From the NCBI RefSeq assembly GCF_007752135.1, contig NZ_CP036298.1, positions 4,216,001-4,280,000 on the forward strand: a DNA stretch of 64,000 nt. Reading direction: 5' to 3'. Made by a program: the position numbers and the translations under genes. This DNA is from Aureliella helgolandensis. Lineage in GTDB: Bacteria; Planctomycetota; Planctomycetia; Pirellulales; Pirellulaceae. Numbering within the stretch: position 1 is the stretch's first letter; every line of letters starts with the position of its first letter. The notes under the pieces were generated by a model. That model had not been told where the DNA came from. It saw only the letters and a list, made by a program, of their open reading frames with translations, and did not search any database. Below, piece by piece: positions 16,801-47,366 of the stretch.

Positions 16801-17068
16801 GATAGCCATCCACGACCGAAAATTGGATGGAGTCCCGCGTTGCGTCGCCGGAAAAGGCAACGTGATTGTCGACTCCCAGCGGATCGGTGGTCACCGTCAG
16901 CAGACGCCGATCTTCAAGTGTTTCAATCAGTGCTCGTCGTACCCTGGAGCGTTGAGACCTCCGACTGCCTGCCGTGCCGCGTAATGCTGCTTTGGTGCCG
17001 CTGGAACGAGCTTTGCGGAATTCATGGAAGCTTCTGCGGAGTTGTTGACCGCGCTGATAAACGGACAT
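4835..17068 (-). CDS. Giant planctomycete surface/secreted protein (hemagglutinin-like repeats, Calx-beta, PKD, EF-hand, RTX-like)
   Basis: 4077 aa. The start ATG (17068-17066) has AAGG seven bases upstream. The N-terminus is Arg/Ser-rich and runs into LIETLEDRRLL (near residue 50), the motif typical of large planctomycete exported proteins. Approximate order: residues 150-1520, alternating hemagglutinin-like beta repeats of the types S-T-V-D-G-D-I-x-I-x-G and S-T-G-x-G-x-x-A-x-x-I; 1520-1640, an autotransporter-like segment (APGQSPGILDVAGDL); 1655-1760, Calx-beta; 1765-1955, PKD-like; 1970-2620, several Calx-beta; about 2760-2810, two EF-hand loops; about 3050-3160, Calx-beta; 3380-3830, PKD and cadherin-like modules; about 3900-3970, RTX-like GGxGxD nonapeptides. 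It is likely a calcium-stabilised adhesin or matrix protein. No secretion genes lie beside it. Confidence 0.9.
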   Translation of the reverse strand: MSVYQRGQQLRRSFHEFRKARSSGTKAALRGTAGSRRSQRSRVRRALIETLEDRRLLTVTTDPLGVDNHVAFSGDATRDSIQFSVVDGYLQHNLGDQPAFASNRDLDSVTAGEQARLLGDISSLTFNDVGDNDRIYFQGTESFDFATAALNFSVGEITISPGVNISTTDGAISLFAAETILVDAGASINTVDGGIELTANRDGSINGDQYSLNLVGATLSTTGVGAILLEGTGGYSSNGFDAGVGIEGGSTIQSTSALAGAGSISINGFGKQGVGASHNSSSWGVHTRDAGNSLSSAYGDIMISGSGGFRTDTMTASNSIGVYLAGLEIESTGTGPGAANIVIDGLAPDVKGSETGVQMSGSDVSITTIDGDISISGRGGNADTLSSQRGVDIQNIDGIRSTGSGSDAGNITILGQLGTGQAIGSSSAVVIGGIATALETIDGDIRISGDGGLGIGDYRSGVSVSALVSSTGVGASAGNITVNGTAGREGHGIGTLTGGSWSTVDGDISVSGIGQSGPARSGLGLSIRGGFASAGTGADAGNISLTGTGLVSATVGASGVHFVSGNYSLTTIDGDIDINGIAGPGTGGSSGILMEGFDRIASTGTGEFAGEIIISGTAADRGLGVSISDLSTGISSVDGNVTFTGVAGNGVGSANRGIYLSNFGAIESMGTGPDAANITLTGTGGDGSRDNDGIHVSGVGSSAIRSVDGEISITGSGGDRTDAADRYSENRGVVLGSVAIESTGTTAAAATISISGTGGDSGRNGYGVHLLDGSLSSMTGNVDVTGHATSGTGIYLLRTHVASNGTSPLAADLNFSGSSVSLVGVVTTVDGDFSSVAPGSTFSGTFQSTGMGSFTVEATGLNGRANAGGSIASRTGNITVTGSMVTAGGIHSTGTGTNAAAIQIGDNHSHQVRVSGLISTVDGPVTIQNQYDPAATQLGYSLITSTIQSTGVGVNAGTISIIGQGTSNLGGVRFWASGAIESIDGDISIVGTGSDGGYGVELDTGFQYIRSTGVGAHAASISIVGTGGDGGSAAAYGINADGKDTGVISTVDGDIEMRGTGGESSSSGKGLYLRKLSIVSSSTTPDLGNISLIGTGGNGQGSGNSGSEIENVSITATTGDISVMGHGGSGAGGSNTGINLASTELKSLGLGMDAGKITLDGTGGGGTSPHGIQIRTGTTLESRDGDIAIKGQGGTVQGTSPSHWWSSKGVLVAGSGIVFASTGTTSNAATISIHGTGDGITNLNNGIELNSSDGILTSAYGNIVLTGVAGNNNSRGIESYNWGEISSTGRGVNAAQILLDGTGRGNQPGIHLEADSAVQNYTITSIDGDIELRGQSESGPGVSAYYYTTNNPGTPSISSTGTGQHAADIRIIGVNSYIALRDPNLELTAADGAIEIESPKVYVYWAQVGPTSGRLSLKTDDLAILFGAAIQSPGDLTIAPLTPGASMGLGGGAGQLSLSDETLAALTDGFASLTFGDSQTGAIEIKTATFSDDVTIVGTVIHDTSGTDFNLGTNRLTLVGQIAPGQSPGILDVAGDLQLGGGSSFSVEVNGDAPGEAASNHDQVWVSGSLTIDNDVTLDLTTSNGYAPLEDFQYVIVENNGTQPITGSFTGLPEGAIMENFLGSSLNARISYLGVDGMTGNDVVLTTTNVKNPIYDFSASSYETIEGDTLAVTNFVTINRSVETSIPTSVDVIVSSGTATSGSDFASEPITVSFAPGELTKTVPITILGERQVESDETAELSLSNFSDYGFPGKIHPTATLTIFNDEFAPIAIAGGEYTLDEGTTITLDASGSSDFEDSNALLLFEWDFDFVDGVFDVDAVGEQVSYSRPDGPHANLVGLRVTDTEGNASHTEAPITTHNTSPTLAPQAPQNLKAYNYAHLNLPVSFSDPGILDTHSVEINFGDGSPVQTIELSDGERGVVLDHLYAIASQSTLNYTVSVKVSDGDGGTSTRNIDVSVEDLAITVPDNRPTISFSTRDFSALEREPYRIQPIIVQLNRPFPVRTEIPLDLSSSTATIDSDFRLSSRVLVFPANQTTAILEFNTLNDTAFEPTLERLALRFPETLEEARVTSDSQLSQFNATIFDDGDLRPTLAFSPTSRVLNEGDEFELSVKLSNLAQVDVVVPLLFSPSNPNYSFASNIVVIPAGSLAGSVSATVTDDELSEPQSSFSVQMGSSGQGFHPNHRYSRFLGTILANDAILVDFETSNITVTEGDAAAQIVVTASEPPETDLVLPIAYASSSASFGVDYSGPETITIPANQTQATFSIIIGDDDNGELDELVSVKFGSNLPDQAQLVRPGIAANLLIEDDDVAKLTFTSKRTVIWEDNTSFELTIETGGITFANDISIPLSYSAATAGATYNSTASDLSGPANEVTLPAGETSVTVTINPSDDAAHETTERVYLSLGTSGIPGAQLGKFPSHEIRIQDNDPLVSLSTASSIVSEGSGTILYKVSLSATSNRRARVPFQTYGSATNGSDYEVVQEAHSTYKTRSTYVEIEPGERVAYIKVKLKNDAVIEGRESVGVWLRPSVGTASLTNANLDGSQYARVLIDIDERPRPEISQVRGKQPGSSSYSSTSTWISEGGSLRIRVSMPYAADRSVWVPVSFPYASGRAYSNDFTTSGLSNGWLNIPAYQKNAYFYIHTLDDLRIEESEKIRATVGQPVVWDKVKEEYVRFGAIGDNYYQFVGIRSSDQNTAYCPSGVSYGSSAISTGCTVDTGQSSSGNSATVADSWTASSFGSLHIANGYLSSSEVFLDGNFNGIRDFVDLNGDGLRSDNEPEEPLVTTFSDGSFLMDFPAEMDRDSSGFIDADEAQLVAFGGMDPATGITERTQLTAPAGSFVVTPLTTLASKLVNNHGYEVADAHERVLSGLHLATFEYWRGSAISATVAGDIVAARTYPATNAVNNTAIIAGGFLSEVAGTTAETASDAIYTRMATLINAEGSRLNLADPVVIEGLIRTAAADIGAVVGQENSEALAEVIAVNTAALFATPVSADLAFLDSVTKLKIVARGALTDDARRFGRDEITATELVATYTSSIQNGLADAATPGVIEPVRVVVSDASIAEGDTGTQFAVFEVSISSHFNEPVSVDYSTQDESATAAEGDYVATSGTLLWNPGDDAMQTIRVPVLGDTLAELDEAFQLSLSNATGAILQKPIAQGTILADDDFQFQLQSLQATSEVLVTLAGNQLLVRQAGEVVLDGRLNPAANFTLSTAPDVVTNLQVDAQSVDEPNRGLIISSNAIDDILSLNNELASNVEHRIQGPEDGVFETAGTELVYQGFRQVSNGRAPRFDFNSLPTLGQSFTAQASIPAQLELLDATFSWTLTKDQITITTSAEESFSYLPAEPGLYRLRYSIVLNDQSIVSAVQDLNIEALNEPPTANAGGTYAVEEGQAILLDGSLTTDPDLPKDTLTLAWDLDGDGYFGETGADASRGDELGVFPTFDASLLDGPNSVTVSLRVTDSFGESDVATATIDITNAAPILAVDTTDVMLNEGDSVIKLITATDVPADTVLVAASLGTIVSNSDGSWTWSYDAVDDLPETEVTITADDGEGGVSYASFNLTVSNAAPILTMDTAEVAIVEGGSWTKLITATDVPADTVSVTASLGTIVTNGDRSWTWNYDSVDDMSESEVTITADDGEGGVSYASFSLTVSNAMPVIESLSITSEIEENGIARVSGAFTDVGLLDTHEIIIDWGDGESSSVIVDETTRTFTAEHSYLDDPIGLESTDYEIIVSIDDGQPRGRVTQNAMITVDNVAPILNDVSLNSWGSSVALNFGFSDEGTLDTHTAFIDWGDGQQTTTDVSPGRQRFNYEYGEAGVYDVTIVVSDDDGAVVSTRAESFVTGATVRDGVLQIVGTSGADLVLINQLGSRHYVTANFLPGWFHTQTFKRADYSQIEVFAGGGNDWVQASGNISHSMLLHGGAGNDTLRSSKGDDVLIGGEGADLLFGGQGRDLLIGGRGNDSLLGSSGADLLISGYTSFDNNRLALSFLQREWTSERSYDHRAENLRGSNSDADQFSNRLNEDYFLQTSGAEQTVFDDGERDFMTGGGGRDWYFASLGDDDEDDRIAGLKQSEWAEELL
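5160..5330 (-). other. RTX-like calcium-binding nonapeptide block in the giant protein
   Basis: Read leftward, this part encodes successive units GGAGNDTLR, KGDDVLIGGEGADLLFGG, QGRDLLIGGRGNDSLLG and SSGADLL, the G-G-x-G-x-D-x-L-x pattern of hemolysin-type calcium-binding repeats (about residues 3910-3970). In the family these fold into a parallel beta-roll on calcium outside the cell and mark C-terminal secretion by type I systems in proteobacteria. Here about 100 residues follow, ending in an acidic DDDEDD stretch. Confidence 0.85.
6110..6640 (-). repeat. Internal tandem duplication of about 265 bp in the giant gene
   Basis: Two adjacent segments (about 6375-6640 and 6110-6375) encode near-identical modules. 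Both contain KLITATDVPADTV, then ASLGTIV, then SWTW-Y-D, then EVTITADDGEGGVSYASF and LTVSNA. The level of identity is far above that between other modules of this protein, which indicates a recent duplication or gene conversion. Confidence 0.85.
12500..16620 (-). repeat. Degenerate hemagglutinin-like coding repeats
   Basis: This 4.1-kb part of the giant gene encodes about twenty degenerate copies of a two-part unit. One part is built on (T/I)-x-D-G-D-I-x-I-x-G-x-G-G and the other on S-T-G-x-G-x-x-A-x-x-I-x-I-x-G-T-G. Units are typically 60-75 residues and are not identical at the DNA level. The pattern suits a parallel beta-helix. Confidence 0.8.
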
Positions 17069-25939: not shown

Positions 25940-26764
25940 CTAGCTCTTGGATTCCATGCGATCGAGCAGTCGTCCGGGGCTGCCCATCATGTTGTAGCCG
26001 CCGTCTACATGCAAGATTTCGCCTGTAATGCCATCGCTCATCGGGCTCAGCAGGAACGCCCCAGTCTTCCCCACTTCTTCGTGAGAGACATTGCGTCCCA
26101 GTGGAGCCATGTATTCGTAGAGCTTGAGCATATCGTCAACCCCTGCGGCGCGACCGGCCAGAGTGCGCAACGGCCCGGCGCTGAGCGCATTGACTCGAAT
26201 TCCCTTAGGCCCTAAATCGTAGGCTAGATAACGCATGGCTGCTTCGAGGGCCGCTTTGCAAATCCCCATCACGTTGTAGCCCGGCACACACTTTTCGCCG
26301 CCGAAATAGGTCATGGCGGCAATAGACGCCTTAGGCGCGAGAATGTCTTGGGCCGCGTTGCAGACAGCCATTAAACTGTACACGCTCACGTCCATGGCCA
26401 ATTTGAAACCGTCGCGGCTGGTCTCAATGGTATCGCGGGACAAGTCGTCGCGATCGGCGAAGGCGATGGAGTGGAGCAGGAAATCGATCTGTCCAAACTC
26501 TTTGCCAGCGGTCGCCATCACTTCGCGTATGTTCTCATCGTTTTGCACATCGAGTGGCACCAGGAATTTGGCGTTCTCGTAATTGTCGGTCAACTTGCTG
26601 ACTCGGCGACGATTCTTTTTGCGTTCGTCATCCTCTCGATCGGGCAAGTGCGTAAAACCACACTCACCGCCTTGTTCTAAAATCTGTTGCGCAATCGCCC
26701 AGGCGATCGAGTTTTCGTTGGCGACCCCAAGTATCAAACCCTTCTTACCAGCGAACAAAGTCAT
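25940..26764 (-). CDS. fabI: Enoyl-[acyl-carrier-protein] reductase (NADH), FabI type
   Basis: 274 aa, typical FabI length. It has the variant glycine motif GVANENSIAWAIAQQI near residues 13-28 that binds NADH, the catalytic Y-x6-K as YNVMGICK near residue 163, and a second conserved Tyr ten residues earlier (TYFGGEKCVPG). The C-terminal part has AGPLRTLAGRA and the usual GEILHVDGGYNMMG ending. FabI reduces the enoyl-ACP double bond in the last step of each cycle of fatty acid elongation, in the cytosol. An acyl carrier protein gene lies 75 bases upstream on the same strand, so the two are probably co-transcribed. Confidence 0.97.
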   Translation of the reverse strand: MTLFAGKKGLILGVANENSIAWAIAQQILEQGGECGFTHLPDREDDERKKNRRRVSKLTDNYENAKFLVPLDVQNDENIREVMATAGKEFGQIDFLLHSIAFADRDDLSRDTIETSRDGFKLAMDVSVYSLMAVCNAAQDILAPKASIAAMTYFGGEKCVPGYNVMGICKAALEAAMRYLAYDLGPKGIRVNALSAGPLRTLAGRAAGVDDMLKLYEYMAPLGRNVSHEEVGKTGAFLLSPMSDGITGEILHVDGGYNMMGSPGRLLDRMESKS

Positions 26765-26839
26765 GCATTTACTTTCAATTAAGACGAGAATTAGTTGTAG
26801 GTTGGTCCAAACAGTGAGACCTACCGAGTTCGATATCGG

Positions 26840-27064
26840 CTAGGTGGCACCGCGAGCCCGGATGTAGTCCGCCAACTCCTGGACCGTTTCGACGTCGACG
26901 ATGTCGTCCTGAATCTGAATGTTAAACTCTTTCTCAAGCTCGACTGTCAATTCAGCCATGCCGATGGAGTCGACACCCAAAAACGCCAGACCGTCGGTCA
27001 ATTGAGGCGAACCACCGAATTTTTCAGCGAGCCGTTCGCGCAGTTTATCTTCAATGGAATCCAC
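26840..27064 (-). CDS. Acyl carrier protein
   Basis: Starting at GTG (27064-27062), the product is 74 aa, the usual ACP length. An ATG-started reading from 27169 would add a 35-residue extension unlike any ACP. The phosphopantetheine attachment site is GVDSIGMAEL, with Ser in the D-S-I context near the middle, followed by an acidic helix (ELEKEFNIQIQDD) and VETVQELADYI. It carries acyl groups as thioesters. It sits just upstream of fabI rather than in a main fab cluster, so it could be either the housekeeping ACP or a specialised one. Ribosome site AGAGG is present but weakly spaced. Confidence 0.88.
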   Translation of the reverse strand: MDSIEDKLRERLAEKFGGSPQLTDGLAFLGVDSIGMAELTVELEKEFNIQIQDDIVDVETVQELADYIRARGAT

Positions 27065-27245
27065 AGGATGTGAACCTCTTCTACGTATAGGATTGGTGAC
27101 TTTACCACCTAGTAGCAGTGCTCGCATTTGGGGATGCGAAACCTGAGCTCCAAGTAGTCCTGCCAGCATGGAAAATTGGGGGCCGTCTCACCTGTTCTTA
27201 CAACGGTCCTCCAGGACTGAAGCAAGAGTTGCTGCGGCTATGCTG

Positions 27246-27346: not shown

Positions 27347-28444
27347 CTAAAGATCGAGCGAATCCAGCTGATTAATCAGATCGTCCAGTTCGTCAGGTTG
27401 ACTTTGATTTTGGGGGTTTTGCGCAAGGCGTTCTGAAATCCCTGATGAAGCCCCTACGGGTTGGCGACCTGCCAATATAAGTTGCTCATCCCTCTCGCGA
27501 GCGGCAACCGCTTCCGCATCTTCGTCCGCTTCCGGCGCGCCAAAGAGTTTCGACAAGTCGATCTTGAGCCCGCTGGCGTCGACCGGAGCACCTGCAATAG
27601 CGGGAGTCTTATGCTGGGGAAAGATAATTGCGTTTTGAGGGCAGACACGACTGCATGCCGGGCAACCCTTGCGACAATTGTCGGCCTGTTCCACCACAAT
27701 CGTTTCGGCGGAATCGACTCCGTAGACTCCGAAGAGGCAGAAATCGATGCATTCCATGCAGTTGGTACAGCGGCTGAAGTCGATGACGGGATACCAGCGT
27801 CGCGTGGGATGTTCCTCAATCGTGACGACACTCGAGGTTCCAAAGAGCGTGGCCAGAGGGGCAGATGCATCGGCCTCCGCGTCCGGCTTGTGTCCCACGT
27901 ACGAGTTGTTCTCGGGGGCCGCAAACCGCTGAAACTGTTCGAGCGACAGATGCTGTGGAGCCTGGGAGGTCTCACTGGCGGCCGTCACTAGTTCTTCCTG
28001 GATGCGGCGGATCTCTGCCAAGTATTCAGGGATCTGGCTGCTAGCTCGGAAATCCAAACAATAGATAGCTCGCTGCGGCCGCGGCTGGTCATCGATGACT
28101 CGCGGTTCGCTTTCGCTCGACTCGATGCCTAAGTCTTGCTCTTCCTCCTCGCCAGCCAAACGCAGTTCGACGGTGCCGACTTGGCCACGCACTCCATTGC
28201 GATCCAGGATCCAATGAGTGGCGCGGTCGTAGAGCCAGCAGAGCACGACCAAATCGGAGTCGAGGTTCTTCAGCGTGGCGTAGGTTTGACTCTCTTTAGG
28301 TAAGTCGTAGAGATGCGGAATGCGCAGAACCTTAACCCCGGGCAATTGCCCGGCAAGCTCCGTCAAGCCGTTCTCGAGTGAACGCTTCTCTGGATTGCGG
28401 CTTTGCCCTGCCGAGATTACTACTGTCAAGTTGCCGCTAGGCAT
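27347..28444 (-). CDS. Protein with an unknown N-terminal domain and two 4Fe-4S-type cysteine motifs
   Basis: The chosen ATG (28444-28442) has AAGGA about 8 bases upstream and overlaps the end of the GcvH-like gene by 8 nt, giving 365 aa. The first ~100 residues (MPSGNLTVVISAGQSRNPEK) form an unassigned domain. The ferredoxin part near residues 224-266 has CTNCMECIDFC (C-x2-C-x2-C-x3-C, with L-F-G replacing the usual Pro) and CRKGCPACSRVCP (C-x3-C-x2-C-x3-C-P). This suggests two Fe-S clusters, one in an unusual setting. The C-terminal ~90 residues are acidic and low-complexity, ending in LINQLDSLDL. As the last gene of a radical SAM / GcvH-like operon it probably supplies electrons to them; this is inferred from context. 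Confidence 0.85.
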   Translation of the reverse strand: MPSGNLTVVISAGQSRNPEKRSLENGLTELAGQLPGVKVLRIPHLYDLPKESQTYATLKNLDSDLVVLCWLYDRATHWILDRNGVRGQVGTVELRLAGEEEEQDLGIESSESEPRVIDDQPRPQRAIYCLDFRASSQIPEYLAEIRRIQEELVTAASETSQAPQHLSLEQFQRFAAPENNSYVGHKPDAEADASAPLATLFGTSSVVTIEEHPTRRWYPVIDFSRCTNCMECIDFCLFGVYGVDSAETIVVEQADNCRKGCPACSRVCPQNAIIFPQHKTPAIAGAPVDASGLKIDLSKLFGAPEADEDAEAVAARERDEQLILAGRQPVGASSGISERLAQNPQNQSQPDELDDLINQLDSLDL

Positions 28445-28907
28445 TGGCTTGTCCTTTGATCGTGCGTTGGGCAACTTCCCAGGCCGCAGTTAAGTGTTCT
28501 AGGTAGTCTTCCGGGGACAGCAGTCGTGAGGCAGCCGATTCCGCGTCGGCTGCAATCTCGTACATCCAACCCTGCCCGTACTTATCCAAATTGATGCCAG
28601 TGGGATCGTGCAGCAAATCCGCGTTCGTTTGGACGACGGTCCCGGCAACTGGAGTGTAGAGGCTGCTCTCAGCTTTCTTACTTTCGATCGAGCCAATTTC
28701 TTGTCGCTCACCGATTCGCATCTCCGCTTCCAGAACCAAATCCAGAAAGTAGACGTCTTGCAGCAATCGGACAGCGTAGGCGGTCAGCCCCAGACGCCAA
28801 ATACCGTCGCGGAGCGGCGCGGCCCACATGTGGTTCTTGGCGTATCTGCGGTCGGTGGGGAAGCGAGCTTCAAAGTCCCCCATCATGAACACCAACTCGG
28901 CGCTCAT
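28437..28907 (-). CDS. GcvH-like lipoyl-carrier protein
   Basis: 156 aa. The ATG overlaps the radical SAM stop as ATGA (4 nt), so translation is coupled. The H-protein fold is visible: RYAKNHMWAAPLRDGIWRLG (like the 'HEWA ... GITDYAQ' strand of GcvH), then IGSIESKKAESSLYTPVAGT, where Lys78 occupies the position of the lipoylated Lys in E-S-V-K-A, then INLDKYGQGWMYEI, the typical G-x-G-W end. An extra ~30 residues follow (EDYLEHLTAAWEVAQ). No glycine cleavage genes (gcvP, gcvT) are present, so this is likely a dedicated carrier, as known for lipoate-binding proteins of sulfur metabolism. The substrate here is unknown. Confidence 0.87.
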   Translation of the reverse strand: MSAELVFMMGDFEARFPTDRRYAKNHMWAAPLRDGIWRLGLTAYAVRLLQDVYFLDLVLEAEMRIGERQEIGSIESKKAESSLYTPVAGTVVQTNADLLHDPTGINLDKYGQGWMYEIAADAESAASRLLSPEDYLEHLTAAWEVAQRTIKGQANA

Positions 28908-30208
28908 GTATAACGTACCCCTTGATTGTCCGCTTCGAAGAATACCGGCAACAGCGCGTCGGCGCGGAGCAACCCTTCGATGGACAATTCAATGCGATTC
29001 CCATCGCGGCTGACATAGCCCGCCGTTTCGTATTCCTGCCATGCTTCGCGATACTCTTCCCACACATCTACCCCGAATTTATTGACAAAATAGTCAATTT
29101 CGAGGTAACCGCGCTTGAGCAGCAGGATCAATTCGCGAATGAGTGCCTGCTTCGGTGTGGGGGTATAGGCTCGTCCCAATGGGAGCCGGCCCTCTTCGAT
29201 CGCGCCGATATACTGCTTCCATTCGGGAAGATTCTGATAGTGGACCCCCGAAATGTGCCCAAAGGATGCGATGCCAGTCGCCAGCAGATCGGAACCCTTC
29301 CACAGATTATCTCGGTAGCTAAAGCTGACCTTATTGGGATCCTTGATCATCGTGTAGGCAGAGCTCTGCGTGTACCCCGCTTCGGCAAATGCTTCGAAAG
29401 CGTACTTAACCCATTCGCGTTTGGTCGGCCAATCGGCCACCGGCGATTCCTGGGACTCTTTGAGCATTCCCTCCGAGTAAACCGTGTTGAAGGGGAGTTC
29501 CATCTGGTAGATGGTCACACTCTCGGGGGAGAGTTCGAGCGTCTTAGCGACGTTCATCTTCCAGTTATCCCAGGTTTCCCCCACCATGCCAGAGATGAGG
29601 TCGATGTTGACGTTCGGGAAATTCGCTGCCGCGATCCACTCCCAAGCGCGGAAAACTTCCTTCGAGAGGTGTGCGCGGCCGTTTTCTTCGAGCAGCTTGT
29701 CATTGAAGTTTTCGATCCCCAAGCTTAGGCGGGTAACCCCCAGCTCCTTGAGCGTTTTGATCTTTGTCTCACTGAGAGTGCCAGGTTCGCACTCAAAGGT
29801 AACTTCTTCCGCTTTGTCCCAGCTGATATTAGCGCGCAGTCGATCGACCAAGCTGGTCAACTGTTTGGGAGACAGGAAGCTCGGAGTGCCCCCCCCGAAG
29901 TAGACGAATCGAAAGGGCCGCTCGCCCATGACAGGCTGTTGGCTGACCAATTCGATCTCTTTGCACAGCGCCTCAACGTACGTCTCGATCTCATCGGCCT
30001 TCTTACCGGTAAAGACTTTGAAGTAGCAAAACTTGCATCTTTTTCGGCAAAACGGAATGTGCAAATACAGCCCCAACGGAACTGGGCCGGGAGGGGCCGC
30101 CATCGCCTTTTCGACTTCAGGCAAGAACTCGGGCTTCCAGCGCGAGTAGGGCGGGTAGTTCGAAATGAAATAGCTACCGACTTCGGTTTTTGTGGCTTCT
30201 GTCGTCAT
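28904..30208 (-). CDS. HemW/HemN-like radical SAM protein
   Basis: 434 aa. The radical SAM motif is C-x3-C-x2-C at Cys54, Cys58 and Cys61 (FCRKRCKFCYF), preceded by LGLYLHIP as in coproporphyrinogen oxidase-like proteins. YFGGGTPSFL near residue 107 is the SAM-binding GGGTPS. Later motifs include ECEPGTL, GVTRLSLGIENFND and DLISGMVGETWDNW. The C-terminal half has a HemW-like domain (GIASFGHISGVHYQNL). HemW-type proteins are heme chaperones rather than oxidases, and several relatives have other roles. It starts 33 bases after the beta-propeller gene and overlaps the GcvH-like gene by 4 nt. The partnership suggests modification of, or on, a lipoyl carrier rather than heme synthesis; this is inference. 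Confidence 0.87.
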   Translation of the reverse strand: MTTEATKTEVGSYFISNYPPYSRWKPEFLPEVEKAMAAPPGPVPLGLYLHIPFCRKRCKFCYFKVFTGKKADEIETYVEALCKEIELVSQQPVMGERPFRFVYFGGGTPSFLSPKQLTSLVDRLRANISWDKAEEVTFECEPGTLSETKIKTLKELGVTRLSLGIENFNDKLLEENGRAHLSKEVFRAWEWIAAANFPNVNIDLISGMVGETWDNWKMNVAKTLELSPESVTIYQMELPFNTVYSEGMLKESQESPVADWPTKREWVKYAFEAFAEAGYTQSSAYTMIKDPNKVSFSYRDNLWKGSDLLATGIASFGHISGVHYQNLPEWKQYIGAIEEGRLPLGRAYTPTPKQALIRELILLLKRGYLEIDYFVNKFGVDVWEEYREAWQEYETAGYVSRDGNRIELSIEGLLRADALLPVFFEADNQGVRYT

Positions 30209-30240: not shown

Positions 30241-31431
30241 CTACTTCTTCTTCTCTCCGAAACAGAATAGGGTGCCGCGATCATTCGCAACGACCAATCT
30301 ACCATCTGCGACGGCTGGTGAACCAATAAAACTACCTTTGACTTCAAACATCCAAAGTTCTTTGCCTGTTCGCAGATCGTAGCGCAAAATGCGCCCATCT
30401 GCGGCTGCTACGACCACGCTCTGCCCAGCGATCACCGGGGATGCATCGGAACGCTTGCGCAACACGGCTGTCCATTTTACTTTCCCCGAGTCTGCAGATA
30501 ACGCGAAAACACGCTTATTGCGACTTGTGGCGACGATCAACCCCTCCGCAACGGCTACCGAGTTCTTAAATTCATCGGCCAACTTTTCATCTTTGAACCG
30601 CCACCGCGGAGTGCGTTGGCCAGCCGGAAATGCAAAGATCTCTCCTGCGTAGGTCGGTACCAGCACCAACTGCTGCGGGTTGCCTGCGGCGTCCCTTGAG
30701 TCTAGATCCAAGACCGAAGGAGTGCTACCGGTGGGGGCGTCGATGGGAATCGGCTCGCCGGTGACTTGCCCCGTCTCCACATCGATCACATGCAGGTTCG
30801 CGTCACACCCCCCCAGGAACGTCTGTTTTCCAGCCAATGTTGGGCCACATTGCAATTGATCTCCCGTTTCGTACTTCCACTTCAATTGGCCATTGGCCTT
30901 GGAGAGACCGTAAAGGATTCCATCTTGGGAGGTGAGGAGCACAAGATCTCCGTAGAAATTGGGACTCGCATCAATCTCCAAGCCGGCGGTGAAGACCCAC
31001 TTCTCTTTTCCGGTCTGGGCGTCGAGGGCGTGCAAATTTCCTTCGTAGTCACCGACGTAGAGCGTATCGCCGTCGATGGCAGGAGAAGCGACAAATCCGG
31101 TTTCCAGTTCGCGGCGCCAGAGTTCCTTACCGGTCGCGAGCTGCAACGCGAAGATACGACCATCATGGTCTGCGGCGTACACCACTCCCCCGGCGATAAT
31201 GGGGCCTGCGTCAAACCCCAGCCCCTTCAACTCGACTTCCCATAGCAACTCCAATGAGTCGGGTAGCGGTTCGTCGGTAGCGCCGGTTCCGGCAACGTTG
31301 CCCCGTCCCATAGGCCAGTCGGCGGCGCGAGCGGAAACAATGCACATGAGGGATAGGCAAGCCATCCAAGCGAGCCTGCCCAAGCATGCTCTGGCTGCTG
31401 CTGTTCGATACACGTTTCTACCTTTCGGCAT
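30241..31431 (-). CDS. Exported PQQ-type beta-propeller repeat protein
   Basis: Starting at ATG 31431-31429 the product is 396 aa; the frame extends to 31554 but that would overlap the upstream gene. A signal peptide is visible (CLGRLAWMACLSLMCIVSARA, cleavage near ARA-ADW). The rest is a series of PQQ-like beta-propeller blades: GGVVYAADHDGRIFALQLAT, GKELWRREL, DTLYVGDYEGNLHALDAQTG, KEKWVF, GRILRYDLRTGKELW. The N-terminal DWPMGRGN is typical of planctomycete propellers. There is no quinoprotein dehydrogenase catalytic domain, so it is probably a scaffold or sensor in the periplasm. It lies 32 bases after the Fe-ADH gene and 32 before the radical SAM gene, in the same operon. Confidence 0.87.
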   Translation of the reverse strand: MPKGRNVYRTAAARACLGRLAWMACLSLMCIVSARAADWPMGRGNVAGTGATDEPLPDSLELLWEVELKGLGFDAGPIIAGGVVYAADHDGRIFALQLATGKELWRRELETGFVASPAIDGDTLYVGDYEGNLHALDAQTGKEKWVFTAGLEIDASPNFYGDLVLLTSQDGILYGLSKANGQLKWKYETGDQLQCGPTLAGKQTFLGGCDANLHVIDVETGQVTGEPIPIDAPTGSTPSVLDLDSRDAAGNPQQLVLVPTYAGEIFAFPAGQRTPRWRFKDEKLADEFKNSVAVAEGLIVATSRNKRVFALSADSGKVKWTAVLRKRSDASPVIAGQSVVVAAADGRILRYDLRTGKELWMFEVKGSFIGSPAVADGRLVVANDRGTLFCFGEKKK

Positions 31432-31463
31432 CCAAGGGTTCCATGCGGAAGTGCGGAATTCGC

Positions 31464-32657
31464 TTAACAAGCTTCTCTGAAGGCAAAGGTTCGTCGGTAC
31501 AGCTCCTGAAAATCGGCTTGATTCAATGGACGCGGGTTGAAGGTGCCAGTCCATTGACGGGTCGCGTCCTCCGACAATTGCTCGATCGCCATTTCGTCGA
31601 CTCCCACCCGTGATAATTCAGTCTCCAGGCCAGCGAGTGCAACCAGCGAATGTACGAAGCGGGCCAGCGACTCGCTGCCCGAGGACGATTTGCAGTTGCG
31701 TGCCAACGGCGTGTGCGCCACATCGCGCCACAACTCCTCGTACCATGCTCCCACAACCTCGCCGTTAAAGCGAATCACTTGTGGTAACATCATGCCCACA
31801 GCCTGCCCATGAGTGATACCAAATCGAGCCGTCAATGGATTCGCGAGGGCGTGAGCGGCTCCCAACATACTAGTTTCAATGGCTAAACCCGCGAAAAAGG
31901 CTCCTAACTGGACCTTTCCGCGAGCTTCAATGTCTTGTGGCTTGCTTAAGACATCGGGCAATCCCGAACTGAGCAATTGCCATGCTTGCCGACTGTAGCC
32001 CACGCTCAGGGGATTTCGCCGCTGCGTCACGTAGGATTCCAACGCATGGGAAACCGCATCAATCCCAGTGAGCGCGGTGACTCTAGCAGGCTGAGTGAGA
32101 GTCAATTCCGGGTCGAGCAAGGCTACACTGCAAGCGGCCCGTGGATCTCCGCAGGCCATTTTGACGTGCGTCTCAGCTTGACTGATCAGTGCGAAGGATT
32201 GTGCTTCGCTACCAGTTCCTGCGGTTGTGGGGACGGCAATCATGGGCAACATTTCCGAAGTGGCTTTGCCAACGCCCCAATAGTCCTCCATTTGCCCGCC
32301 ACAGGAATACAGAAAGTTCATGCCTTTCGCACAATCCATTGAGCTGCCGCCCCCCAGACCGATCAACAGATCCGGGGTAAATTCCTTGGCAACTTGCAAG
32401 CACGCGGCAACATCCTCGGTGGATGGATTTTCATGGACGCCCTGAAAAGAATGGACTTCAATATGCTGCGCCGTCAAGGCATCTAGGCCGCGTTGGAAGT
32501 GCCCGGCGGCGACCACACCTGGATCACTCACCACCAAGACGCGACTGGCTCCTAACTCGCGGCTCAATTGTCCCAGGCGCGAAAGCCCCCCAGCCTCGAA
32601 AACCAAACGCGTGCGGTGTTTAAAGTCAATACTATCCATGCGTTCTGACGATCTCAC
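31464..32657 (-). CDS. Iron-containing (group III) alcohol dehydrogenase
   Basis: 397 aa from ATG 32657, or 391 from 32639 (MDSIDF). The NAD-binding GLGGGSSMDCAKG motif (about residue 100) and the metal ligands of the Fe-ADH family are present: Asp and His in GIDAVSHALES, then His in GAAHALANPL and His in ITHGQAVGMMLP with the expected 14-residue step. Such enzymes interconvert alcohols and aldehydes or ketones with NAD(P), with Fe2+ or Zn2+. The substrate cannot be told from sequence. It is the first gene of the leftward operon that continues with the beta-propeller, radical SAM, GcvH-like and ferredoxin genes. Confidence 0.92.
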   Translation of the reverse strand: MRSSERMDSIDFKHRTRLVFEAGGLSRLGQLSRELGASRVLVVSDPGVVAAGHFQRGLDALTAQHIEVHSFQGVHENPSTEDVAACLQVAKEFTPDLLIGLGGGSSMDCAKGMNFLYSCGGQMEDYWGVGKATSEMLPMIAVPTTAGTGSEAQSFALISQAETHVKMACGDPRAACSVALLDPELTLTQPARVTALTGIDAVSHALESYVTQRRNPLSVGYSRQAWQLLSSGLPDVLSKPQDIEARGKVQLGAFFAGLAIETSMLGAAHALANPLTARFGITHGQAVGMMLPQVIRFNGEVVGAWYEELWRDVAHTPLARNCKSSSGSESLARFVHSLVALAGLETELSRVGVDEMAIEQLSEDATRQWTGTFNPRPLNQADFQELYRRTFAFREAC

Positions 32658-33196
32658 TTTTCACAAAGTTAAGCAATGTGCGGTGGTCAATTGTGCCGCA
32701 CTTCGGTTAGCTGCGGAATTGGGGCTGCGAGCTGTTGTTGTCGTAGCCCAATTTCCGAGAGTGGTCGCACCACCCTCGGGGCGTTGTGGTCCTATTTCAT
32801 TATTCGCCCGCTGGCACCCACCTGCCGGTTGTGCTGTGGTAGTCAGGCGGAATGGGTAAAGGGTATTTAACTTGCCGCACCGTACAAAGTTTCTGGCCAA
32901 GGTGGGAATGTGCTACCTTGCTGCAGAGCAGTTCCACAGCAAACTTGGAGCTCTGAGGAAGAGCAGGCCATTCGTATGCGTTCCGTCGAAGGGGCTATTC
33001 TAGCAAAAACTGGCGCCGTTGGAGTTGAACCCCGCCACAATCCAAAAGTTGTGCTGGAAGTTAGAACGGCTTTCTCGAGCGGTCAAAGGCAATTAGAATT
33101 TTGACACCGTAGCGGTAACCCGATATTTGATCAACCTGGATCATGGTGATCCAGAATCGCCCCCTTCGAAACTTCACAACGAAGAAGCCACCCCCA
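32658..33196. other. Divergent intergenic region
   Basis: About 540 bases between the leftward Fe-ADH operon and the rightward DapA-like gene, so promoters for both should be here. GC-rich imperfect inverted repeats occur (for example ATTGGGGCT and AGCCCAAT at about 32724-32755), but no clear -35/-10 pair was assigned. Confidence 0.4.
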
Positions 33197-34111
33197 ATGG
33201 ACACTCGTTCGATCACTCCCGCTCGTCTTGCGGAAAGCGTTATTGCCGTACCTCCCCTGGCTCGAGATGCAAAGCTCCGCGTAAATTTGGCCGAAAATCG
33301 CAAAATTGCGCAGTTTATCGAAGGGGGCGGGGTCAATACGCTGCTGTACGGAGGTAACGCCGTGTTCTACCACGTTCGTCTCAGCGAGTACGAGCAAGTA
33401 CTGCAGACCTTGGTCGAGATCGCCTCCCAGGACACTCTCATCGTGCCTGCCGTTGGGCCGACCTACGGGACGATGATGGACCAAGCTGAAGTCTTGAAGG
33501 ATTTCGATTTCCCGACCGTTATGGTTTTGCCTCAGCGTGAAATCGCCGATGCCAACGGAATTGCCAACGGCATCCGTCGGTTTGTCGATGCCTACGGTAA
33601 ACCCATCGTCTTGTACCTCAAGCATGACCAATGGCTGCCAGCGGATTTAGTAGGAAAAATGCACCGCAACGGCATTATCTCATGGATCAAATATGCCGTC
33701 GTACGAGAGGATACTAGCAACGACAACTACTTGCGGGATGTGCTGGCCGAAGTGCCTAGCAACATCGTGGTCAGTGGCATTGGCGAGCAACCTGCCATCA
33801 TTCACATGCGCGACTTCGAAATCGCAAACTTCACGAGTGGATGCGTCTGTGTCAACCCAGCTCTGTCCATGAAGATGATGCGAGCGATTCAGAGTCAAGA
33901 CTTTGACACTGCTGAAACGATTCGCCAACAATTCACTGGGTTGGAAAACCTCCGTAATGGCATTAATCCAATCCGCGTTCTTCACCGCGCTGTGGAACTG
34001 GCCGGTATCGCAGAAACCGGTCCAATGTTTCCACTCCTCAGCGAAATCGACCCAGCGCAAACAACCTTGGTTGCCAATGCTGCAGAGCAACTACGGATGC
34101 TAACAGCCTAG
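33197..34111 (+). CDS. DapA-like (dihydrodipicolinate synthase family) aldolase
   Basis: Starting at ATG 33197 the product is 304 aa, the family's normal length; an ATG at 33143 would add 18 low-quality residues. The TIM-barrel markers are GGVNTLLYGGNAVFYH (the G-G-T-x-G-E-like strand), IVPAVGPTYGTMMDQA, PIVLYLKH and SWIKYAVVRED, in which the Lys sits at the Schiff-base position. The family includes lysine-pathway DapA, N-acetylneuraminate lyase and sugar-acid aldolases. The divergence here and the lack of lysine genes nearby suggest a sugar-acid or other aldolase rather than DapA itself. Confidence 0.82.
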   Translation: MDTRSITPARLAESVIAVPPLARDAKLRVNLAENRKIAQFIEGGGVNTLLYGGNAVFYHVRLSEYEQVLQTLVEIASQDTLIVPAVGPTYGTMMDQAEVLKDFDFPTVMVLPQREIADANGIANGIRRFVDAYGKPIVLYLKHDQWLPADLVGKMHRNGIISWIKYAVVREDTSNDNYLRDVLAEVPSNIVVSGIGEQPAIIHMRDFEIANFTSGCVCVNPALSMKMMRAIQSQDFDTAETIRQQFTGLENLRNGINPIRVLHRAVELAGIAETGPMFPLLSEIDPAQTTLVANAAEQLRMLTA

Positions 34112-34350: not shown

Positions 34351-35847
34351 ATGAATCTTGGCATCAATACAGAACGACCAACCACCGAACGCAAAGCGTT
34401 GGCTATTAACCTTGACCCTCGCCGTTACGGATCTTTTGCGGAGATTGGGGCTGGCCAAGAAGTGGTTCGATGGTTCTTCCGCGTTGGCGCCGCTGCCGGT
34501 ACGATCGCGAAGAGCATGTCCGCCTATGACATGTCGGTAAGCGACGCGATCTATGGTGAATGTGAGCGCTACGTTTGCCGTAAGCGCCTAGAGGATATGC
34601 TGGAGCACGAGCATTCGCTCAATTTGCAACGCCTGCGCGAGAGTCGTGGCGATACGACATCCTTCTTCGCGTTTGCCGACACGGTTTCCGCCCGCAACTT
34701 CCATGGCACCAACGAATGTCACGGCTGGATCGGTATCCGATTTCAAGCGCACCCTCGCGATCAAGACAGTCAGATCATCATGCATGTCCGCATGCTGGAC
34801 ACCGAGAACGCGTTGCAGCAAGAAGCACTCGGCATCGTCGGAGTGAACTTGCTCTACGGTGCATTTTTTCTGAACCACGAGCCCGATCAATTGGTCGAAT
34901 CGCTCCTCGACAATCTCAGCACCCGCAGAATTGAGATCGATATGATCGAATTCTCGGGAATCGCCTTCCGTCATGTCGATAATCGCGTGATGAGCCTGCG
35001 TTTGGTGCAATTGGGATTGAGCAATGCGGCCATGTTTTCCGCTGACGGCGAAGTGCTGCAACCCTCGGAAGTCCTTTACAAGAAGCCGATTTTAGTCGAG
35101 CGTGGGAGCTTCCGTCCGCTAACCCACGTCAATGTGGACATGTTGCGCGCGGCTCAGGAAAGATTCCATGCGGAAGCAGATGTGGAAGCCGATGAAGTGG
35201 TTTCGTTGGCAGAGATCACCATGCGTAATTTGCAAGCCAACGGAGATATCGATCTTCGTGACTTCCTGGCCCGAGTGGACGTGTTGGCGGCTAGCGGGAT
35301 GACCGTCTTAATCTCCAACTATTTTGAATACTATCGACTCGCGGCTTACTTGGCGCGTCACACCAAGAAGAAGATTGGCATCACCATGGGAGCGGCAAGC
35401 CTTTGTGAGTTGTTTGACGAAAAGTACTATACAACTCTGGATGGAGGAATCCTCGAGTCCTTCGGGCGACTCTTTAAGAACGATTTAAAGCTGTACATCT
35501 ATCCGCTGCTCAACCGAGATACGGGGGAGTTGACGACAGTCGACAATTTAGAGGTAGCGCCGGAGCTGAGAAAGCTCTATCGATATTTGGTCGATAAGGG
35601 TTGCATTGAACAACTCGATAATCACAACCCGGCGCACTTGGGGACTTTCTCGCGCGAAGTCTTGAGATTGATCCAGACCGGTGACGATTCTTGGCGTGAA
35701 CACGTGCCTGCAGGAGTTGCTGCCGTGATTGAAGAGCGAGCGTTCTTCGGCTATCGACGGTCGGCCAAAGGCACTCAAACGAAGGTCAGCACATTGCCTG
35801 TTCCACTCAATGCAATTCCGATCATGAGTTCATCGGTGCCGGTCTAA
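34351..35847 (+). CDS. Large conserved cytoplasmic protein of unknown function
   Basis: 498 aa, start ATG 34351 with AGGA ten bases upstream. No signal peptide or membrane segment. The N-terminal part is strongly patterned (LDPRRYGSFAEIGAGQEVVR, then AAGTIAKSMSAYDM). I recognise this as a widely conserved family found in Bacteroidetes and planctomycetes; I recall it carrying inconsistent labels (TonB-dependent receptor, NMN adenylyltransferase), neither supported by what I see. Further blocks are FHGTNECHGWIGIRFQ, EIDMIEFSGIAFRHVDNRVM and ISNYFEYYRLAAYLARHTKK. The gene stands alone with its own leader repeat. Confidence 0.85.
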   Translation: MNLGINTERPTTERKALAINLDPRRYGSFAEIGAGQEVVRWFFRVGAAAGTIAKSMSAYDMSVSDAIYGECERYVCRKRLEDMLEHEHSLNLQRLRESRGDTTSFFAFADTVSARNFHGTNECHGWIGIRFQAHPRDQDSQIIMHVRMLDTENALQQEALGIVGVNLLYGAFFLNHEPDQLVESLLDNLSTRRIEIDMIEFSGIAFRHVDNRVMSLRLVQLGLSNAAMFSADGEVLQPSEVLYKKPILVERGSFRPLTHVNVDMLRAAQERFHAEADVEADEVVSLAEITMRNLQANGDIDLRDFLARVDVLAASGMTVLISNYFEYYRLAAYLARHTKKKIGITMGAASLCELFDEKYYTTLDGGILESFGRLFKNDLKLYIYPLLNRDTGELTTVDNLEVAPELRKLYRYLVDKGCIEQLDNHNPAHLGTFSREVLRLIQTGDDSWREHVPAGVAAVIEERAFFGYRRSAKGTQTKVSTLPVPLNAIPIMSSSVPV

Positions 35848-39230: not shown

Positions 39231-40322
39231 CTACTGGTCGAGTTGCGCTACTTCGCCACCGTTTCTGGTGCCAAGGCTACTGTAAATTGTGGCATCGATA
39301 CTCTCGGAGAGGTAGCGTACGGAACCGTCAGCCAATCCAAAGCTAGCGCCGCCGACATGCCGACTTCCAAAGCTGAGTTCGTAGGCGGCAAACTCTGGAG
39401 ACCCTGGCGGAACGGGCTTGGCATTCATCCGAACTCCGGTCGACCCTAAGCATTCGGACATATCGCCTTGATTCGTCGTGTCAATATCGTCGCTGCCGAT
39501 GGACCAATGGTCTTTCCGCCCCATCATCGGACTGTTGTTTTCGCGAACCACTCCCATGTCAGGGACAACCTGAATGTCCGATTCGGCCTCACCAATAGCA
39601 ATGGTGTTCGACGTCCCATCGGTAATGGAGCCAATTTTTGAACCGATCAATCCGTAGCTGGCGCCGTTGCGTTTGATACGTTGATGGTTGACTTTTTGGA
39701 TAAAGACTCCGTCTAGATCGCTAATCACCTCGACGGTACCGGAGCCTCCCCAGGGAGCGGACACATTCTGGGGACGTCGGTCGTCGGTCAACACGCCAGA
39801 GACACATCCCAGGTAGTTGGATGGAGCACGGCGTTGTACGATCCAGTTGTCCCCGGAGATATCAGCAACGTTCTCTGGAAATGAGGAAGATGGACAGCGA
39901 AATGCGGGCATCTTCGTTTCACAGACGTAGATATTCTTGAAGAATTTGTACGAAGGATTGCTGAAGGCTGCATCTCCAGGGATACCAGGCAGCCCGGCTG
40001 CCCACTGGTAATTGCCTTCAGAATCTTCTTGAAAAACCATCTGGTTGTAGGCATTGCCTTGTTCGATGTAGGGGAGGATGAGAGCGCCCCAAGCGGTACC
40101 CACGCCAAATTCCGCCGCCATCGGGAAGCCCTTGTAGGTATCGTGAAAGTTATGACTAGCCAAAACTAGCTGTTTGACATTGTTCTGGCACTGCATTCTG
40201 CGGGCCGCTTCGCGAGCAGCTTGAACCGCAGGCAACAGCAGTCCTACCAAGATTCCAATGATGGCGATGACTACCAGTAGTTCGACCAGTGTGAAGCCAC
40301 TGCTTTGTGAACGACGTCTCAT
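39231..40322 (-). CDS. DUF1559 prepilin-like protein
   Basis: 363 aa. A type IV prepilin-like N-terminus (SGFTLVELLVVIAIIGILVG, followed by AVQAAREAARRMQC) carries a PilD cleavage context before the Phe. The C-terminus has SFGSRHVGGASFGLADGSVR, the H-x9-D-G motif of the DUF1559 family. These proteins are extremely abundant in planctomycetes and probably form pseudopilin-like surface or periplasmic structures. The lipoprotein gene upstream (26 bases away) is the usual companion. Most likely co-transcribed with it. Confidence 0.95.
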   Translation of the reverse strand: MRRRSQSSGFTLVELLVVIAIIGILVGLLLPAVQAAREAARRMQCQNNVKQLVLASHNFHDTYKGFPMAAEFGVGTAWGALILPYIEQGNAYNQMVFQEDSEGNYQWAAGLPGIPGDAAFSNPSYKFFKNIYVCETKMPAFRCPSSSFPENVADISGDNWIVQRRAPSNYLGCVSGVLTDDRRPQNVSAPWGGSGTVEVISDLDGVFIQKVNHQRIKRNGASYGLIGSKIGSITDGTSNTIAIGEAESDIQVVPDMGVVRENNSPMMGRKDHWSIGSDDIDTTNQGDMSECLGSTGVRMNAKPVPPGSPEFAAYELSFGSRHVGGASFGLADGSVRYLSESIDATIYSSLGTRNGGEVAQLDQ

Positions 40323-46420: not shown

Positions 46421-47366
46421 TGCAGTACTCCAGGTAGCAAAGAAAATACCACGTCCCATGTATGCAAAATAAATGCGTCAAAATAGATGGGACGAACTTA
46501 TGGAACCAGTTTGGATCCATGAACGGGGCAATAGATGTCGCAAACATTTCGATTGCGACGACTGCGTAAGATTGTTTGTAAGTAGCACGCAACATTCCAC
46601 TGGATTCGCGAGAAGAATGTGTTAACAATGCGCTAAGGCTGATTCACGTGTGTTGTCTGCCTTCAAGCCCTGGCCTGTTTGGCTCTACAACCGTTCACAT
46701 CCTGGCCGCGATCTGCAATTGAGGTTGAGCTGGTGAAATATTGGCTGGAGCTAACGTACCGTTAAGATCATATGAAATCGGTAAAATCCTTCCTCTGCCG
46801 CGCAGGCAAGCTTCTCGGGCGTCGTACAATTTTTAGGAATGTCAACTTCGCATCCCATCGCTCGCAAGGTCGCAACGTTGCTGTCCCTTACAAACCATGG
46901 GCTGTTGCCCGATTCCGCCGAGTGGAGCCGACGTTAGGTATCGCACAGAAGGGAACGAGTACTCCGTGACGGTCTTGCCTGTAGTTCACATGTCCACGAC
47001 ACGCCGGAATACAAACGTGACGGAGATTGCTGGATTGTCCAAGGAAGTTGGACGTCAAAGGCTCCCGCTCTAACTGCGGTGCGGAATGAATTGGTTGGAA
47101 GATTCGGAGACAGAGTCCAGAGGCAAACCGAACTAGCGACTGGCTTGCGGAAGATGGGATTTTCAGCGACAGCCCTTGAGTCTACGGAGCGGCGAGAACC
47201 TTGTGTGCATTCGCCACACGATTTTGCCTCGCAAAAGGCCGGCTGATTCAACGCCCTGCGCGCATCACAAGCCTCAGGCGAGGTGGTCACCTGCTGGCGG
47301 AAAGCTGCCCCTACTTGCGTCCCATGACAAACATTCCAATTCGAAAACAGCTTTGCTTGAAACTCC
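46421..47366. other. Long intergenic region (0.95 kb) before the oxygenase gene
   Basis: No credible gene on either strand. Minus-strand open frames up to 144 codons are present but show no motif or ribosome site and overlap the start of the next gene. This should hold the promoter of the 1783-aa protein gene and that of the oxygenase gene. Confidence 0.4.

Follow-up and report, generated by a model that had tools for sequence, protein, structure and literature searches.

What does an H-protein-like carrier do in a run of three genes that encodes none of the partners of glycine cleavage? The question is raised by a 64,000-nucleotide (nt) stretch of the Aureliella helgolandensis contig NZ_CP036298.1 (positions 4,216,001 to 4,280,000, hereafter the window), taken from a genome of 8.44 Mb in one contig (G000). 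Here a HemN-family radical S-adenosylmethionine (SAM) protein (rSAM), a paralog of the H-protein GcvH (GcvHL) and an iron-sulfur protein (FdX) are encoded one after the other. The original prediction for this DNA had proposed a radical step on a lipoyl-bound intermediate or on the carrier itself. Our own answer, built on sequence comparisons and held tentatively, is that GcvHL and FdX may pair as lipoyl carrier and ferredoxin in a planctomycete isoprenoid pathway for which no description was found, possibly an aryl-isoprenoid one. The features of the locus are as follows.

28904..30208, minus strand: rSAM, a HemN-family radical SAM protein that is neither HemW nor HemN (434 aa; Pfam Radical_SAM, 1.7e-22, and HemN_C)
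30026..30049, minus strand: CX3CX2C radical SAM motif of rSAM, Cys54/58/61
28437..28907, minus strand: GcvHL, an H-protein paralog (156 aa; PF01597, 8e-25; ESKKAES)
28674..28676, minus strand: codon of GcvHL Lys78, the lipoyl-lysine position by alignment with solved H-proteins
27347..28444, minus strand: FdX (365 aa), with an N-terminal alpha/beta domain and two 4Fe-4S-type cysteine motifs
27641..27769, minus strand: the FdX cysteine motifs (residues 226-268), CxxCxxCxxxC (226-236) and CxxxCxxCxxxC (257-268)

When coordinates and strands were re-checked, the three minus-strand genes were found as originally described, with rSAM and GcvHL overlapping by 4 nt (ATGA, 28904-28907) and GcvHL and FdX by 8 nt (28437-28444). 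This arrangement is not due to chance, since the motif residues are invariant and 76 of 80 named loci have rSAM on the upstream side of GcvHL, as detailed below.

The carrier, its iron-sulfur partner and the radical SAM protein

For the counts of invariance, the named sequences were filtered by length and completeness, which left 72 for rSAM, 79 for GcvHL and 52 for FdX, and the sequence of the window was added to each. Lys78 of GcvHL, which had been noticed within its ESKKAES context, aligns with the lysine of the solved H-proteins on which lipoate sits, and all 13 matches in the PDB were H-proteins. The invariance check gave 80 out of 80 sequences with this lysine, and it was also kept in 26/26 members of the wider GcvH cluster, including lineages in which the flanking motif is changed to EGFKA. 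The genome of the window encodes LipA and two lipoate/octanoate-ligase-type proteins, so that GcvHL may be lipoylated. The protein nevertheless scored under the cut-off of the gcvH equivalog (89.1 bits, cut-off 115.85) and under that of NF002270 (101.4 of 117 bits), and a sub-threshold match was found with the "GcvH-related protein" family NF045810 (47.8 of 150 bits).

The family membership and the retained lysine would also suit a second H-protein for glycine cleavage. However, a canonical gcvT-gcvH-gcvPA-gcvPB set, together with a lipoate-ligase-type gene, was found at ~7.12 Mb, at a distance of 2.9 Mb from the three genes of the window, so that the absence of GcvP and GcvT stated in the original prediction holds within the window and not for the genome. 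The idea that the genome lacks glycine cleavage and that GcvHL is an orphan GcvH was discarded, since the canonical operon, with its own gcvH, is present. GcvP was present in 19 of the 20 genomes examined, and in all 14 of those in which a GcvHL-type gene could be placed, GcvP was encoded on a different contig or at a distance of over 0.8 Mb, so that in these genomes the carrier is encoded apart from GcvP. With this separation and the scores under the gcvH cut-offs, a second H-protein for glycine cleavage is very unlikely. The exception among the 20 genomes, G005, has GcvHL and gave no match to GcvP; at a completeness of only 85%, this genome carries no weight as a case of GcvHL without glycine cleavage. 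G040, the other candidate for such a genome, was rejected because it has GcvP.

The two cysteine motifs attributed to the 365-aa protein were borne out, and the eight cysteines of FdX are invariant in 53/53 sequences. Fer4 profiles match the protein, PF00037 alone above its cut-off, and the ferredoxin part matches HdrA profiles at E 4e-5 (~22 of 1100 bits). In the structural model residues ~1-160 are mostly confident and the cysteine region is poorly modelled. A small protein, C19, had seemed by eye to share a RAxxW stretch with the N-terminal domain of FdX; a profile comparison gave a probability of 4.8 %, and the likeness was dropped as unsupported. FdX was also sought on plasmids, where none was found.

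We then come to rSAM, which had been called HemW-like. Cys54/58/61 were present as described and are invariant in 73/73 sequences; rSAM thus has the CX3CX2C motif in a Radical_SAM domain, as members of the radical SAM superfamily do. The likeness to HemW stands at this superfamily level only. The best of the 21 NCBIfam matches was HutW (194.8 bits, cut-off 400); the HemN equivalog gave 178.7 bits (cut-off 324.95) and the HemW equivalog 173 bits (cut-off 205.4), and rSAM scored under the cut-off of each NCBIfam family listed. The two PDB matches were HemN 1olt (E 1e-31) and then the methyltransferase NocN. The cluster motif reads CRKRCKFCYF in the window protein and CHKLCYFCGC in 1olt, i.e., CYF replaces the CxC of the CX3CX2CXC motif of HemN; Tyr62 is invariant and Phe63 is found in 71/73 sequences. 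The HNxxYW motif, given as the heme-binding motif of HemW in PMC11834973, was sought in the rSAM family and found in 0/73 members. The sole other HemN-family match in the genome (236.4 bits) passes the HemW cut-off and carries HNEAYW. A HemW identity of rSAM is ruled out by the cut-off, by the missing HNxxYW motif and by this separate protein, and a HemN identity by the cut-off and the cluster motif. A heme or tetrapyrrole module with a HemN/HemW-type rSAM would account for the similarity to 1olt and for the weak NirJ/Ahb scores, among many others, of a second radical SAM gene found in related clusters (see below); against the scores under the hemN and hemW cut-offs, the 73 sequences without HNxxYW and the replaced CxC, it is hardly probable.

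Gene order and co-occurrence across the phylum

When genome contigs were scanned with an alignment of GcvHL, 182 loci were found, of which the best 80 were kept, so that the sample leans to close relatives. All of these named loci are titled as planctomycetes except the bins L083, L129 and L157, which are titled "bacterium" and have the same genes. In 76 of the 80 loci the rSAM gene is found no more than 1.2 kb upstream of GcvHL; a contig end cuts one further locus, and three lack rSAM. In 37 of the 76 the tblastn match of rSAM ends at the first base of GcvHL, like the 4-nt overlap of the window. FdX comes next on the same strand, at most 1.3 kb downstream, in 53/80 loci (54 with L158, which was dropped by an overlap filter); it is elsewhere in four and possibly cut off in another four. 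In a search of the window's own genome and its relatives, a close GcvHL (E 1e-30 or better) was found in 40 of 60 genomes, with weaker matches in the other 20 (E 1e-12 to 1e-18). Among 30 loci of that search rSAM stands beside GcvHL in 29, the thirtieth being cut at the gene, and FdX was found in 25, once on the opposite strand. The three families are therefore conserved together beyond the window, a check that the original prediction had left to be run.

The gene run often continues upstream of rSAM, with two genes that in the window are:

30241..31554, minus strand: PQQ-type beta-propeller protein, a conserved upstream gene (Pfam PQQ_2, 2e-69)
31464..32657, minus strand: iron-type alcohol dehydrogenase (FeADH), a conserved upstream gene (Pfam Fe-ADH, 3e-47)

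The PQQ gene lies 32 nt upstream of rSAM, with FeADH next beyond it; the PQQ open reading frame (ORF) overlaps FeADH by 91 nt, so that the real PQQ start is probably downstream of the ORF start. Among the 76 named loci with rSAM, PQQ was found within 1.5 kb upstream in 56 (14 lacked it and six were cut), the order FeADH-PQQ-rSAM in 45, and aldehyde dehydrogenase-FeADH-PQQ in 33. In locus L154 (8782-20262) a beta-propeller gene stands directly 5' of GcvHL. FeADH-PQQ-rSAM also occurs in other classes of the phylum; in L080 and L081 it is accompanied by a symporter, AMP-ligase-like proteins, a flavin-dependent halogenase/monooxygenase-like protein, a glycosyltransferase and a 4HBT thioesterase (families scanned in L081), a set that resembles a secondary-metabolite cluster. 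On the other side, 177 nt downstream of FdX, an acyl carrier protein (ACP), extended at its N-terminus, and a FabI-like reductase are encoded (25940-27169, minus strand); both were rejected as members of the set, ACP being found in 2/80 and FabI in 1/80 named loci.

Co-occurrence was counted in genomes at least 85% complete, in draws of 391, 382 and 372 genomes. The thresholds were E 1e-90 for rSAM, E 1e-15 for FdX, E 1e-22 for GcvHL and E 1e-40 for a fusion of DUF116 with a polyprenyl synthetase (hereafter the fusion). In the full draws rSAM was found in 102/391 genomes, FdX in 91/382, GcvHL in 55/382 and the fusion in 91/372. When the count was limited to the 372 common genomes (G425, G429, G436 and G440, absent from the draw of 372, were left out, and the commonness of the others was taken from the order of their handles), rSAM was found in 98, FdX in 89, GcvHL in 54 and the fusion in 91. 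FdX and the fusion occurred together in 86 of them, though they are unlinked in the genome of the window. The other pairs were rSAM with FdX (77), rSAM with the fusion (79), GcvHL with FdX (52), GcvHL with rSAM (52) and GcvHL with the fusion (53). By family, FdX was found in 32 and the fusion in 33, 31 of them common to both; these counts are approximate, the total of 98 families being the highest label in the matched rows. In control genomes DUF116 was found in 2/14, both methanogens.

Distance separates the two neighbours of GcvHL. On one strand and within 1.5 kb, GcvHL and FdX are found in 46 of the 53 genomes with both, whereas GcvHL and rSAM are so placed in only 17 of 53; in the other 36, rSAM is on the same contig at least 161 kb from GcvHL (19 genomes) or on another contig (17). 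These numbers, together with the sharing of FdX and the fusion, indicate a constant core made up of GcvHL-FdX and the fusion, whereas rSAM belongs to the gene run only in Pirellulales and some few other groups. Since the pairing also occurs without an adjacent rSAM, as it does in L194 and L197 described below, GcvHL more probably serves FdX and the cyclase/fusion module than rSAM.

This bears directly on the reading in which rSAM acts on the group bound to Lys78 or on the carrier itself, with FdX as the electron donor. It accords with the place of rSAM overlapping or neighbouring GcvHL in 76/80 named loci and with the presence of rSAM in 53 of 55 genomes with GcvHL, and the interpretation given originally is to that extent partly supported. 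It is weakened by the distance of rSAM from GcvHL in 36 of 53 genomes, 46 of the 53 having kept FdX next to the carrier, by the neighbourhoods, which favour FdX, by the 46 of 98 rSAM genomes without GcvHL at E 1e-22, and by the named loci in which GcvHL-FdX has no rSAM upstream. A direct radical step on the carrier thus becomes unlikely.

Linked genes and the putative isoprenoid pathway

In the genome of the window, a terpene-cyclase-like protein (C6), the fusion and a further protein (C9) are encoded together at ~2.80 Mb (L206), i.e., away from the three genes of the window. In G041 (L208), a single same-strand run carries the genes for an AMP-ligase-like protein, an aldehyde dehydrogenase, FeADH, PQQ, rSAM, GcvHL, FdX, the cyclase-like protein, the fusion and C9. 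In Pirellulaceae bacterium KatS3mg110 (L158) these genes likewise share one strand, and FdX is followed there by a second radical SAM gene. G348 (L212), L102, L111 and L135 have the same order, but their second radical SAM gene points the other way. In L194 and L197, GcvHL-FdX is followed directly by the cyclase-like and DUF116/prenyl-synthase genes, with no rSAM. In distant planctomycetes a diverged GcvH-family gene and FdX are accompanied by a CobW/HypB-type GTPase, the second radical SAM protein, the fusion, a prenyltransferase-toroid protein and a squalene-hopene-cyclase-like protein, and in L178 by a cysteine desulfurase; the families were scanned in L178 and assigned by similarity in the other loci. 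Among 20 stretches chosen for their matches, the GcvH family was found in 15, FdX in 16 and both in 11, with gene calling that dropped some overlapping ORFs (e.g., FdX in L189 and GcvHL in L190). Within the family f7, G042 (L178) has the diverged GcvH-FdX-fusion cluster and G059 (L066) has rSAM but, at the above thresholds, neither FdX nor the fusion, a contrast that could reflect gene transfer or loss.

The linked proteins carry conserved catalytic-type motifs. DDxxD and DXDD are terpene motifs; DXDD is kept in 13/13 members of C6, which is matched by SQHop_cyclase profiles, and DDxxD in 16/16 members of the prenyl-synthase cluster, in 14 of which the cysteines of the DUF116 part are conserved as well, the other two (338 and 388 aa) apparently being without that part. 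The model of C9 (mean predicted local distance difference test score, pLDDT, 85.6) matches the DUF98 protein 2nwi (E 2e-8) and chorismate lyase 1jd3 (E 4e-6), so that C9 is predicted to have the chorismate-lyase (UbiC/DUF98) fold, and its conserved residues may be counterparts of the active-site residues of chorismate lyase. A Pfam scan of seven C9 proteins (E 10) gave no match to chorismate lyase or DUF98; three of the seven had chance-level matches to unrelated families (best E 0.05). In the aldehyde dehydrogenase, the NgGRsCiN region, which presumably holds the catalytic cysteine, is conserved across an alignment of 12 members. The second radical SAM protein gave sub-threshold matches to many radical SAM/SPASM families.

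Upstream genes of this kind also allow GcvHL to be read as an acyl or aroyl thioester carrier for the AMP-ligase-like protein, the aldehyde dehydrogenase and FeADH, which would turn an acid into an alcohol, with FdX and rSAM acting later. Both the ordered aldehyde dehydrogenase-FeADH-PQQ run in 33/76 loci and the conserved NgGRsCiN region would fit such a role. Carboxylate-reducing systems, however, normally use CoA, ACP or an enzyme thiol, and GcvHL-FdX also occurs without those genes nearby (e.g., in L194 and L197), which makes a thioester carrier an improbable reading.

In the isoprenoid reading that we favour, the three genes of the window would form part of a planctomycete pathway, the rest of which is encoded at other places in the genome. 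GcvHL would be a carrier of the lipoyl type that has specialised in something other than glycine cleavage, FdX its dedicated iron-sulfur partner, and the two together a redox couple serving the DUF116/polyprenyl-diphosphate-synthase fusion and the class II (DXDD) terpene-cyclase-like protein, while the HemN-family rSAM would perform a further radical step on the same product. C9, the AMP-ligase-like protein, the aldehyde dehydrogenase and FeADH would activate and reduce an aromatic acid, and since these four suggest such chemistry, the product may be an aryl-isoprenoid. That the carrier is lipoylated and has a redox role, what the product is and in which order the steps run are all what we infer from the genes. 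A more detailed version, in which the lipoylated H-protein and its own ferredoxin give electrons or a thiol to the cysteine-rich DUF116 domain of the fusion, to yield a planctomycete-specific cyclised aryl-isoprenoid that is then modified by rSAM, is conceivable and rather doubtful in its full form.

Several results weigh against the isoprenoid reading. No match at E 0.001 or better was obtained in the fold search with FdX, which was not seen in the available stretch of 19 of the 80 named loci (18 without L158), and three of these 80 (L154, L114 and L116) have GcvHL-FdX without rSAM upstream. rSAM and FdX are each found without the other (rSAM without FdX in 21/98 genomes, 18 of them also without the fusion; FdX without rSAM in 12/89), so that rSAM may have a role of its own. 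FdX was found without GcvHL at E 1e-22 in 37/89 genomes, several of which carry a diverged GcvH gene beside FdX, and the co-occurrence counts carry no correction for shared ancestry; Fisher values, which treat relatives as independent, are given no weight here. C6 scored 79 bits against a hopene-cyclase cut-off of 431, the prenyl synthase is far under the cut-offs of known equivalogs, the C9 model also matches GntR-type effector domains, and no aromatic prenyltransferase was identified among the proteins scanned.

PMC12078418 and PMC8303584 report carotenoids from squalene and a 4-hydroxybenzoate ester among planctomycete metabolites, and terpene-type clusters in Adhaeretor and relatives, respectively. 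The suggestion that the set is not a described system was borne out in the literature consulted, mostly open-access, in which no description of it was found, and no paper titled on DUF116 was among the literature matches listed.

The window has other features outside these subjects. An ORF of 4077 aa (4835-17068, minus strand) carries Calx-beta, PKD and RTX-type calcium-binding repeats and probably encodes a giant protein that is secreted or displayed at the surface. Ig-like, lamin-tail and dockerin domains are combined in a 1796-aa protein encoded at 41069-46459 (minus strand), and near it is encoded a DUF1559 protein with a prepilin-type N-terminus (39231-40322, minus strand). A 498-aa ORF (34351-35847, plus strand) had no Pfam or NCBIfam match at E 0.01 and adjoins a gene with weak likeness to dihydrodipicolinate synthase (33143-34111).

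Comparison with known systems

A close precedent for a carrier of this kind is LbpA, in line with the remark in the original prediction that stand-alone lipoyl carriers are known in sulfur metabolism: it is a GcvH homolog that acts outside glycine cleavage, in the sHdr sulfur-oxidation system (PMC10332631 and PMC6067878). GcvHL is likewise a recruited GcvH homolog encoded with iron-sulfur proteins, and a sulfur-carrier role would be in keeping with that precedent, with the sub-threshold matches of GcvHL to NF045810 and of FdX to HdrA, and with the cysteine desulfurase gene that follows the cluster in L178. Unlike LbpA, however, GcvHL is linked to isoprenoid-type genes, and no Hdr subunit, LipS1/LipS2 or sLpl(AB) passed among the selected proteins scanned around GcvHL, a selection that did not include every neighbour; we consider an LbpA-like role decidedly unlikely.

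The GcvH of glycine cleavage shares with GcvHL the H-protein family and the lipoyl-lysine position, but GcvHL is encoded at a separate locus, is under the equivalog cut-offs, has conserved residues flanking both sides of the H-protein profile region, and has FdX as its partner instead of GcvP/GcvT. Similarly, rSAM has the CX3CX2C core and the HemN_C domain of HemN, HutW and the class C protein NocN, but its score is less than half of the HutW cut-off. C6 resembles the squalene-hopene cyclases in its profiles and its DXDD motif and differs from them in the low score given above. C9 would share the fold of chorismate lyase and DUF98, as predicted by the model, but has no Pfam match to either, and GntR regulators also use this fold to bind ligands. 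Lipoyl carriers belong to textbook central metabolism. If the isoprenoid reading is true, lipoate would be tied to isoprenoid chemistry, DUF116 would gain a functional context and an unknown planctomycete compound would be indicated; the set, kept in a good part of the sampled planctomycetes, would then be a second dedicated use of such a carrier beside LbpA.

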